DNA of 64,000 nucleotides from Bacteroidota bacterium (GTDB lineage: Bacteria > Bacteroidota > Bacteroidia > Chitinophagales > Chitinophagaceae): the NCBI GenBank assembly GCA_947448725.1, contig CANFOM010000008.1:1-64000 (forward strand), given 5' to 3'. A program made the position numbers and the translations under genes. Each line of letters begins with the position of its first letter. Positions within the stretch are counted from its first letter, which is position 1. The notes under the pieces were generated by a model. The model was given only the letters and a program-made list of their open reading frames with translations, was not told the origin of the DNA and searched no databases. Positions 1 to 2,201 of this stretch are shown piece by piece.

Positions 1-45
1 AATCAGATACACTAAAGTTTACTAGAAATCTCCAACTGAAAAAAA

Positions 46-1707
46 ATGAAAAAAAATAATTTACTAAAAAGCGCACTATTTTTTTTACTGCTATCAACTA
101 TAATAATTAACGCCCATGCGCAAACTGGATTAAATTTTCAGGGGGTAGCAAGAACAAGTAATAATGTGATACTAGCATCACAGGCCATCACAATTAAATT
201 AAGTATTTTACAAGGTAGTGCAACTGGAACTGCTGATTATATCGAAACTAGAAAAGTCACCACCAATGCACAAGGTTTATTTACAGCGGTAATAGGAGAC
301 ACAGGAGCTATTAGTACTTTAGGAAACTTTACTACCATTAACTGGAAACTATCTCCCAAGTTTTTGAAAATTGAAATGGATGCAGCAGCAGGAACTAATT
401 TTATTACAATGGGGACGACCCAGTTCCAGTATGTGGCCTATGCGCAATATTCAAAAAGTGTAGATGCTGAAAATATAGTAGGTATTGTTCCTGTAACATT
501 AGGAGGAACAGGTGTAAATAGTTTAACAGGTTTAAAGACGGCATTAACCTTAAATAATGTAAATAACACAACAGACCTAGCTAAACCCATTAGTACTTTA
601 ACTCAAACTGCACTTGATTTAAAATTAAATGCTGCAGATACGAGTAAATACACAAAACAAACCTATAGTGATTCAGCATTACTGACTAAATTAAACACAA
701 GTGGTAATGCGGCTACAGCGACTACAGCTGGAAATATAACAGCAACAACCAACACGACATTAACCTCCTTATCAAATTTAGCAACAGTTGGAACCATCAC
801 TAGTGGCGTATGGAGTGGAACAGCGGTGGCAGTTGAAAAGGGAGGAACAGGTGCTACAACAGCAAGTGCAGCAAGAACAAATTTAGGATTGGTGATTGGT
901 ACTAATGTACAAGCACCATTAGTTGCAGGAACAGATTATTTAACACCTACGGGCAGTGCTGCTAGTTTAACTAATTTTCCAACATTAAATCAAAACACAA
1001 GTGGTAATGCAACTACAGCAACAACAGCAACAACAGCGGGAAATATAACAGCAACAACCAACACGACATTAACTTCCTTATCAAATTTAGCAACAGTTGG
1101 AACAATCACTAGTGGCGTATGGAGTGGAACAGCGGTGGCAGTTGAAAAGGGAGGAACTGGATTAACTGCAGCGGGAACTAATGGTCAAGTATTAACATCA
1201 ACTGGAAGTGGAACTTTAACATGGACGGGCACACATTATATAGGAGAGTCATATGGTGGTGGTAAAGTATTTTATGTATATGACAATGGTAAACATGGTT
1301 TAATTGCTGCAACATCAGATCAAGGTACCGGAATCAGGTGGTATGGTGGTTCAAATACAAATACAAGAGCAAGGGCAGATGGGGTTGGTGCTGGTTTAAA
1401 AAATACTGCACTAATTATTGCAAATCAAGGAGCTGTAGATGGTGATGCATTTGCTGCAACGGTTTGTAATGAGTATTCAGTAACTGTTGATGGAGTAACT
1501 TATGGTGATTGGTACTTACCTTCAAAAAATGAACTCAATTTACTTTATTTACAAAAATCAGTGGTTGGAGATTTTGCGGGTAACTACTATTGGAGTTCTA
1601 CGGAGGACGACAGCTCCGTCGCGTGGAACCAGAATTTCAACTCTGGCAATCGGTACAACGCCTTTAAGGTCTACGCTCTCTATGTTCGCGCCATTAGGGC
1701 TTTTTAA
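46..1707 (+). CDS. Secreted tail-fibre-like repeat protein with DGR-type variable C-terminus
   Basis: This 553-residue protein has a signal peptide (MKK start, hydrophobic segment, cleavage after AHA-Q near residue 26). Low-complexity Thr/Ala/Gly-rich repeats of the kind seen in Bacteroidota adhesins and tail fibres fill about residues 150-400, including two near-identical copies of a segment ending SGVWSGTAVAVEKGGTG. The C-terminal 150 residues resemble the DUF1566/Lcl C-terminal (C-type-lectin-like) domain: YGDWYLPSKNELNLLY, then YYWSSTE, and a final YVRAIRAF. That domain type is a known target of diversity-generating retroelements (DGRs), and codons 513-553 carry the expected hypermutation footprint. 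An avd-like gene follows on the same strand 62 bases later, the usual DGR order. The inferred role is a cell-surface or secreted ligand-binding protein; the ligand is unknown. An ATG with an A-rich leader sets the start. Confidence 0.8.
   Translation: MKKNNLLKSALFFLLLSTIIINAHAQTGLNFQGVARTSNNVILASQAITIKLSILQGSATGTADYIETRKVTTNAQGLFTAVIGDTGAISTLGNFTTINWKLSPKFLKIEMDAAAGTNFITMGTTQFQYVAYAQYSKSVDAENIVGIVPVTLGGTGVNSLTGLKTALTLNNVNNTTDLAKPISTLTQTALDLKLNAADTSKYTKQTYSDSALLTKLNTSGNAATATTAGNITATTNTTLTSLSNLATVGTITSGVWSGTAVAVEKGGTGATTASAARTNLGLVIGTNVQAPLVAGTDYLTPTGSAASLTNFPTLNQNTSGNATTATTATTAGNITATTNTTLTSLSNLATVGTITSGVWSGTAVAVEKGGTGLTAAGTNGQVLTSTGSGTLTWTGTHYIGESYGGGKVFYVYDNGKHGLIAATSDQGTGIRWYGGSNTNTRARADGVGAGLKNTALIIANQGAVDGDAFAATVCNEYSVTVDGVTYGDWYLPSKNELNLLYLQKSVVGDFAGNYYWSSTEDDSSVAWNQNFNSGNRYNAFKVYALYVRAIRAF
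730..848 (+). repeat. Intragenic direct repeat, copy 1
   Basis: A 119-base in-frame segment that recurs at 1039-1157, exactly 309 bases (103 codons) later. I count two mismatches between the copies (the bases after taac and after ggaac). It encodes the GNITATTN...VEKGGTG unit. Such high nucleotide identity suggests a recent duplication or gene conversion. Confidence 0.9.
1039..1157 (+). repeat. Intragenic direct repeat, copy 2
   Basis: Second copy of the 119-base unit at 730-848, with two substitutions by eye. The similarity extends upstream at lower identity through the NTSGNA-type coding stretch (around 693 and 997). Confidence 0.9.
1579..1704 (+). repeat. Putative DGR variable region (VR)
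   Basis: Codons 512-553 of the upstream gene. Codons 521-525 read GAC GAC AGC TCC GTC, and 542-545 read GTC TAC GCT CTC; other candidate sites are TCT533, CGG536, TAC537, GCC539 and TTT540. Nearly all end in C or T, as expected if a template AAC/AAT codon had its two adenines replaced at random during mutagenic reverse transcription. They lie between conserved framework codons (YYWSSTE, AWNQNF, YVRAIRAF). A hand count over 1606-1703 gives about 54 percent GC, well above the AT-rich surroundings. No template repeat was found in this window, so the VR call rests on codon pattern, domain type and the neighbouring avd-like gene. Confidence 0.72.
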
Positions 1708-1734
1708 CAATTTAACTATTTGACAATTTAAAAA

Positions 1735-1749
1735 GTCCGCGTGGCGGAC
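1735..1749. other. Hairpin just downstream of the variable region
   Basis: GTCCGC, loop GTG, GCGGAC: a perfect 6-bp GC-rich inverted repeat 28 bases after the stop codon. In several characterised DGRs a hairpin or cruciform a short distance after VR supports retrohoming. This one sits in the right place but its loop is shorter than the usual 4-base loop. A second, weaker inverted repeat pairs ctttttaa (1700-1707) with ttaaaaag (1728-1735). With no long T-run after it, a simple terminator is less likely. Confidence 0.6.
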
Positions 1750-1769: not shown

Positions 1770-2057
1770 ATGGCATTATATTACGAGTTGCCAGTTTATC
1801 GGGATGTGTATAAGCTAATTTTGATGATATTTGAGTGTACAAAAGATTTTTCAAAAGAATATAAATACACACTAGGACAGGATATGAAAAGGGATGCATT
1901 GCAATTAGTCAGGAACATTTACAGAGCTAATAAGTCAGCAAATAAAAAGGAATATAAGTTTGGAATTAAAAAATCAGGATTTGATTTCAATTATACTGCG
2001 CTAGATAATGCCCCAAAGAAACCCTTCAAAACCCCATATTCCCCCTTTCTGCGCTAA
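1770..2057 (+). CDS. avd: Truncated Avd-like four-helix-bundle protein (probable pseudogene)
   Basis: A 95-residue frame whose first 62 residues match the DGR accessory variability determinant (Avd)/S23-like four-helix-bundle family: LPVYRDVYKLILMIF, then FSKEYKYTLGQDMKRDAL and LVRNIYRANKS. Family members usually run to about 110-130 residues with two more helices. Here the resemblance stops after NKKEY (about position 1955), and the remaining 33 residues, rich in Lys, Phe and Pro, look unrelated. The alternative frame after the break reads LELKNQDLISI, weakly reminiscent of the third Avd helix, so a frameshift or internal deletion is possible. Avd is a pentameric basic protein that binds the DGR reverse transcriptase and template RNA. 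The order target-avd is canonical, but template repeat and RT are missing, so this is probably a remnant. A free-standing four-helix-bundle protein is the alternative. Confidence 0.65.
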   Translation: MALYYELPVYRDVYKLILMIFECTKDFSKEYKYTLGQDMKRDALQLVRNIYRANKSANKKEYKFGIKKSGFDFNYTALDNAPKKPFKTPYSPFLR

Positions 2058-2079
2058 TTCCATATCCACCCCAATAAAC

Positions 2080-2110
2080 TTGGTTAGGAACTAATATTGG
2101 CGTATCTTTG
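2080..2110 (+). promoter_or_regulatory. Promoter of tRNA-fMet (Bacteroidota type)
   Basis: TTG at 2080-2082, 20 bases, then TATCTTTG at 2103-2110. This fits the Bacteroidota -33/-7 consensus (TTG/TTTG, N19-21, TAnnTTTG). The mature tRNA begins 12 bases after it. Confidence 0.75.
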
Positions 2111-2122
2111 CCGTCCAAACAT

Positions 2123-2194
<72 letters not shown>

Positions 2195-2201
2195 CATCAT
2201 C

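Follow-up and report, generated by a model that had tools for sequence, protein, structure and literature searches.

A probable orphan variable repeat, written by a diversity-generating retroelement, in an adhesin-like gene of a Chitinophagaceae bacterium

The window, the 64,000-nucleotide stretch of Bacteroidota DNA that was analysed, opens with a gene for a surface protein whose last codons bear the footprint of a diversity-generating retroelement (DGR). With a probability of about 85%, we read this variable repeat (VR) as written by a DGR whose cassette, formerly present in cis, was lost by an internal deletion of approximately 1.8 kb, so that the locus is now an orphan VR and not a complete DGR. 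The original prediction of such a footprint is borne out by variation restricted to template adenines, by the AAC/AAT templates of relatives, and by the avd remnant and hairpin downstream.

Target gene and codon footprint

The features of the locus are as follows.

46–1707, plus strand: DGR target gene for an exported, repeat-rich surface protein of 553 residues (open reading frame, Lcl_C match, repeats; signal peptide by eye)
1312–1698, plus strand: Lcl_C domain bearing the VR, residues 423–551 (Pfam Lcl_C, E 3e-9)
1567–1704, plus strand: VR, with an approximate 5′ limit (A-site comparisons between VRs)
1681–1704, plus strand: 3′ end of the VR, invariant and located where an IMH would lie (same 24-mer in the second VR of this genome and in two viral contigs)
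1735–1749, plus strand: hairpin between VR and avd, with a 6-bp stem and 3-nt loop (hairpin scan, folding)
1770–1952, plus strand: truncated avd, first 61 codons or so (bAvd and DivGenRetAVD profiles; L093 Avd)
1953–1976, plus strand: junction of the deletion, followed by the final codons of a DGR reverse transcriptase (RT), KFGIKK (match to G336:C172:128–332)
2123–2195, plus strand: tRNA-Met, apparent insertion hot spot (5′-half copies elsewhere)
Window 1956–2160, with G000:C32 (L132 8245–8400), L133 128–332, L134 5064–5182 and L135 80–193: tRNA-Met upstream region and tRNA nucleotides 1–38, with copies

The name IMH and the corresponding role are our assumption for the invariant segment at 1681–1704. 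The translation of the target gene ends in VRAIRAF, and codons 521–525 (GAC GAC AGC TCC GTC) and 542–545 (GTC TAC GCT CTC) lie where they had been placed from the sequence alone. The protein was also rightly described as exported and repeat-rich, with a signal peptide recognised by eye and two direct repeats of 137 nt each (96% alike) inside the gene. The solved chain of HbP1 (8q4e) matches the Lcl_C region at E 6e-25 in a sequence-profile comparison, which uses sequence only; in the HbP1 literature, the matches listed included only an unrelated namesake protein. Lcl_C is presumably the present name of DUF1566. The latter is reported, in the accessible part of the source, to be the most common target domain of DGRs and to have a C-type-lectin fold (PMC6642488).

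The VR ends at the stop codon of the target gene. The GC content of 1579–1704 is raised relative to AT-rich flanks, as had been claimed, with a value of 50.0% and not the 54% given before; it is 37.6% in 46–1578 and 32.8% in 1708–2100, and only 0.34% of the 126-nt stretches of the window have a GC content as high. Codons ending in C or T make up 35 of 45 in the VR vs 228 of 508 in the remaining gene, and those ending in C make up 19 of 45 vs 44 of 508. The count of 19 is the maximum among 17,419 overlapping 45-codon stretches of long open frames and is matched at one or more other places in the window, on the minus strand.

A paralogue on another contig of the same genome (G000:C21; L003 16–1626) is 90% identical to window 31–795 and has a different C-terminal domain; both genes start at base 46 of their contigs. 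A third contig, C32, stops within a gene (L132 8652–8858). Since five loci (L229, L242, L071, L227 and L052) have a relative of that gene on the strand of the VR domain, approximately 2.5–3.2 kb upstream, C32 may run on into the start of the window's contig. In a module common to this genome and Aquirufa (L052 8373–13591, L071 5561–10522), the VR target comes last, after a membrane protein whose C-terminus is AraC-like by eye and then a small secreted protein.

Variation at template adenines

Intact cassettes are present in relatives. In G103 (L044) the order is target, avd (113 residues), template and RT (396 residues); the target-avd-RT layout recurs in L075, L093 and L096, and in L097 and L101 with cuts at contig ends. 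A template could be read in five of the six cassettes (L044, L075, L093, L096 and L097), and none was read in L101. At most of the places where codons vary in the window, these templates have AAC or AAT, in agreement with the origin proposed for those codons.

The last 120 nt were divided, with template adenines taken from the templates of relatives, into 53 positions with an A in one or more of four templates and 67 that are never A. A search of the genome for a segment differing at A sites, proposed with the original prediction, yielded a second VR (G000:C7), which differs from that of the window at 26 of 53 A sites and at 0 of 67 never-A sites (p 6e-12). With the majority template, A sites account for 24 of the 26 differences (p 1.4e-10), and the remaining two lie at positions that are A in the L044 and L075 templates. 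The sole difference in a third codon position falls in a codon that is ACA in the templates. Identical residues are encoded by identical codons in 23 of 23 cases in the VR and in 41 of 68 elsewhere in the domain, and no synonymous change was found outside template-A sites between the two VRs of this genome. The locus thus has a VR at the 3′ end of its target that varies at template adenines, as expected of a DGR. Conservation of these codons without A-site bias, the outcome that would have spoken against the prediction, did not occur, as the codons vary at template-A sites.

Similar patterns are found in other hosts and in viral contigs. Relative to the window, the VRs of G319 (another species of this genus) and of a 117-kb IMG/VR contig each differ at 28 of 53 A sites and 0 of 67 never-A sites, those of G435 (same genus) and Aquirufa antheringensis each at 29 and 1, and that of G399 (same genus) at 31 and 3; these five are the rows with the fewest never-A differences in an ungapped 120-nt comparison table of 63 rows. 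The VR of the 117-kb contig is also present in a second viral contig of 65 kb. Together with C7 and the window, these rows form a set of seven VRs (never-A differences 0, 0, 0, 1, 1 and 3; the next row, L054, has 4), in which the low never-A count is partly a result of selection while the contrast between A and non-A sites is not. The VR pattern was found in 27 viral contigs, of which only L191, L195, L196 and L198 are in the table (L061 and L063 were left out). Where the length of a VR differs from that of the window, the table is out of register (by eye), and such rows (L041, L042, L047, one L049 copy, L057, L072, L080, the second L083 copy, L086, L092, L096, L098 and the second L052 copy), with an A bias ranging from none (p 0.96) to p 1e-5, were not used.

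Outside the VR, the domain bodies share 23–54% amino-acid identity with the window, except for Aquirufa (116 of 123 residues). Of ten sequences compared, that of G074 most resembles the body of the phage domain (87 of 120 residues), and the framework of the phage VR is that of the window, with identical codons at 21 of 21 identical residues, vs 15 of 22 with G074. We infer from this mismatch of body and framework that the phage VR was probably overwritten independently of the phage domain body. The VRs of this genome, G319 and the virus agree at all 67 never-A sites, and that of Aquirufa at 66, so that one template most likely wrote the VRs of the window, C7, G319, the 117-kb viral contig and Aquirufa. 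Near-identity at never-A sites with VRs of other hosts also speaks for recent writing of the window VR.

Aquirufa antheringensis, a distant bacterium of the order Cytophagales, offers the clearest comparison and serves as a stand-in for the comparison among strains that had been proposed. Its sequence has 6 mismatches in 327 bases (98.2% identical) against window 1240–1566 and 36 mismatches in 138 bases against the VR (1567–1704), corresponding to a divergence of 1.8% just outside the VR vs 26% inside; the start at 1240 was chosen after the mismatches had been seen, and an ungapped comparison of 1205–1239 gives 20 mismatches. Of the 30 differences within the last 120 nt, 29 fall at A sites. 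The similarity spans window 1038–1714 (BLAST identity 87.5% over 1042–1714) and drops to about 71% further upstream. The best Aquirufa matches of five other window proteins are only 32–39% identical (400 kb sampled in 20 stretches of the 2.5-Mb genome). This low identity, set beside the near-identity outside the VR, indicates that part of the gene was probably shared recently between the two distant bacteria and differs mainly in the VR.

Two further observations concern viral contigs. In L200 (5968–6697) and L201 (3202–3928), three or more VR-bearing frames stand in tandem approximately 345 bp apart, each diversified differently. L203, of 58.7 kb, combines a VR, an AAC-rich template-like repeat and an RT, and looks like a complete viral DGR that belongs to the wider family. 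It is the one contig of the 27 with a match to RVT_1; none was found in the other 26, many of which may be fragments and some of which are near-copies of each other.

Cassette remnants and the search for template and reverse transcriptase

Hairpins just after the VR have a role in DGRs, and one is present here. Perfect GC-rich hairpins are also found 29–36 nt after the VR in L093, L096, L097, L075, L043, L047 (with the same stem as in the window) and L051; a simple scan found none in 11 of 20 loci, L044 among them, and the fold of the whole region has a z of only −1.57. The avd remnant is 85% identical to residues 1–62 of the L093 Avd. It matches the bAvd profile at E 1.7e-8 (residues 13–61) and the DivGenRetAVD profile at E 9.8e-8 (residues 7–61), in both cases below the curated cut-off, and with only about its first 61 codons it falls short of a full-length Avd.

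The avd sequence is followed, at about codon 62, by the codons for KFGIKK, with the junction near 1953–1956. Window 1956–2160 is 83% identical to G336:C172:128–332, which directly follows an RT C-terminus that is itself 63% identical to the L044 RT; of this RT, the contig edge leaves only a C-terminal piece. The G336 stop codon is a sense codon in the window, so that the remnant frame 1770–2057 continues. Relative to the L093 layout, approximately 1.8 kb is missing, including the end of avd, the template repeat (TR) and nearly all of the RT. Joining of an avd piece to 3′ codons of an RT points to an internal-deletion scar of a full cassette. The avd fragment and the scar go beyond the original prediction, which named neither. 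Other avd remnants beside VRs (L043, L046 and L098), whose similarity ends or breaks at other places, suggest that such cassettes may have decayed repeatedly. RVT_1 was not found in the genomes of L043 (G159) and L046 (G074), and the genome of L098 matches the L093 RT at only 33%.

The G336 RT piece adjoins a half tRNA-Met, and era was not found within the 8 kb read there, so that the two loci, alike in sequence, are at most candidate orthologues. The genes beyond the tRNA-Met of the window resemble era and der. Copies of the region upstream of the tRNA together with tRNA nucleotides 1–38, ending just after the anticodon, are found in this genome and in relatives, and the tRNA-Met looks like an insertion hot spot, as judged from these sequences. 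In G401 and G298, half copies are approximately 1.1–1.4 kb upstream of a full tRNA-era. Genes for a GNAT acetyltransferase and a TacA-like antitoxin (L132 7296–8125) adjoin one half copy. Pfam did not support an integrase identity for the frame next to the half tRNA in G336, and the NCBIfam XerD match is weak (E 3.4e-4). A tRNA gene (Met, Lys, Asp or Leu) is located within 400 bp downstream of the VR match in 7 of 20 VR loci of the genus, a count that has no matched control.

The prediction had tied its fate to a template and an RT in the genome as well as to variable codons; neither of the former was found, which counts against it, and the codons are not conserved, which counts in its favour. 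RVT_1 was not found in this genome up to E 10, two DGR RT queries (L044 and L093) had no match, and VR and TR queries matched only VRs. The 38 contigs of the assembly amount to a completeness of 94.8%, and the first base of the target is base 46 of its contig, so that an RT or TR could be absent from the assembly rather than from the genome. The locus corresponds to an orphan, RT-less VR, with A-confined variation and no RT or TR in this assembly; of the parts of a complete DGR, a template in the same genome and a DGR-type RT, apart from the scar of the last codons, were not found.

VR-like DNA occurs at E 1e-5 in 14 of 147 genomes of the genus, this one included, and avd only in the window, with a stop-bearing fragment in G432. 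The L093 RT has matches in 9 of the 147 genomes at E 0.01, all outside the 14 with VRs; only the match in G336 is close (65% over 45 residues). The L044 RT matches five of the 147, including the VR-bearing G384 (a weak match of 60 residues with two stops). In a set of 32 genomes (28 obtained via loci of one protein query of genome contigs, plus G000, G074, G103 and G159), the L093 RT has a match at 1e-5 in 16, eight of them at 53% identity or more, counting the genome of the query. Aquirufa antheringensis (strain 30S-ANTBAC) has no match to the L093 RT at E 1e-5. Exact-pattern searches of IMG/VR for a TR of the window's type returned VR-bearing contigs only, and a further pattern search returned four contigs with AAC-rich templates and RTs 36–38% identical to the L093 RT. 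Phage records had no match to a query of the VR/template type, and plasmids had one, at 71%, in a Methylomonas plasmid.

Origin of the diversity and implications

In the preferred reading, the target gene would once have headed a standard cassette of target, hairpin, avd, TR and RT, as in L093, L096, L044 and L075. A DGR RT would have copied the template repeat, placing random bases opposite template adenines, and the mutagenised cDNA would have replaced the 3′ end of the adhesin-like gene. Such mutagenic retrohoming would explain why change is confined to A sites, why the framework is invariant and why the VR is independent of the domain body. A deletion of approximately 1.8 kb (by the L093 layout) would then have taken out the TR together with the 3′ part of avd and almost the whole RT, leaving a fused remnant frame at 1770–2057 and an orphaned VR. 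We infer that the deletion took place in the window's own lineage and that the VR was last rewritten either by the cassette once present in cis or from a further copy of its template. The template used last may have resided in the lost cassette, at another site in the organism or on a mobile element.

It is highly improbable that the binding domain varies through ordinary diversifying selection or recombination, with no DGR involved: binding domains do often vary, and genes of this kind move between hosts, but every difference between the two VRs of this genome falls at a site where the template of one or more relatives has A, synonymous changes elsewhere being absent, four other VRs show a similar confinement, and the absence of differences at 67 never-A sites already contradicts such an origin. 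A less remote, if still doubtful, alternative is that a working RT and TR survive in an unassembled part of the genome or on a plasmid and rewrite both VRs in trans, the cis remnant being an old duplicate. The lack of never-A differences between the two VRs implies recent writing, the assembly is incomplete, and remote variable proteins are known in cyanobacteria, according to the accessible text of the report (PMC7517822). Against this, RVT_1, the two DGR RTs and the TR and VR queries reveal no RT or TR in this genome; within the genus, 13 further genomes bear VRs and all lack an L093 RT match (E 0.01), G384 alone among them having the weak, interrupted L044 RT match, and Aquirufa likewise lacks an L093 RT match. 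It is rather unlikely, and somewhat more so than rewriting in trans, that only a fragment with the target and the start of avd was copied here, never with an RT of its own, while TR and RT travel on a mobile element that visits many hosts. Near-identical target DNA in Aquirufa, a single template for bacterial and phage VRs and the tRNA genes close downstream of 7 of 20 VR loci would fit such a transfer, but the fusion of the avd piece to RT 3′ codons points instead to deletion from a full cassette.

The locus resembles Avd-containing cassettes with a DUF1566/Lcl_C target (L075 and L093) in having a VR at the 3′ end of the target, a hairpin and avd downstream and, in their case, an AAC/AAT-rich template; unlike in those, avd is truncated and TR and RT were not found. 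As far as the accessible parts of the following reports go, a VR apart from any RT, as in the C7 copy, is also known from the remote variable proteins of cyanobacteria, whose genomes, in contrast to this one, hold an RT and TR (PMC7517822). Incomplete cassettes occur in crAss-like phages, with VRs in 80 genomes and TRs in 30 of these (PMC7290462); there too the VR is retained while the remaining cassette decays, whereas the window is from a bacterial chromosome and its template is most likely common to distant bacteria and a phage. DUF1566 target domains (PMC6642488), remote VRs (PMC7517822) and decayed cassettes (PMC7290462) are thus already in print, to judge from the same portions of these papers. 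The new part is the presence of orphan VRs with one template across distant bacteria and a phage; no description of RT-less VRs with such a template was found in titles and the openings of abstracts, a scope outside which most subscription journals fall.

More tentatively, a mobile or trans-acting DGR, with a template in none of the collections searched, might write one cassette into adhesin-like genes of distant bacteria and phages, the VR serving as a shared landing pad and many recipients having a VR only. If so, bacteria and phages would draw diversity from one template. Comparison that starts from the VR reveals VRs in bacteria and viral contigs that have no detectable RT and have one template in common, and hypervariable proteins may therefore outnumber what counts of RTs indicate. 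It also becomes possible to test for diversification in trans, whether among hosts or between a host and a phage, and the Aquirufa pair provides a clean natural experiment.
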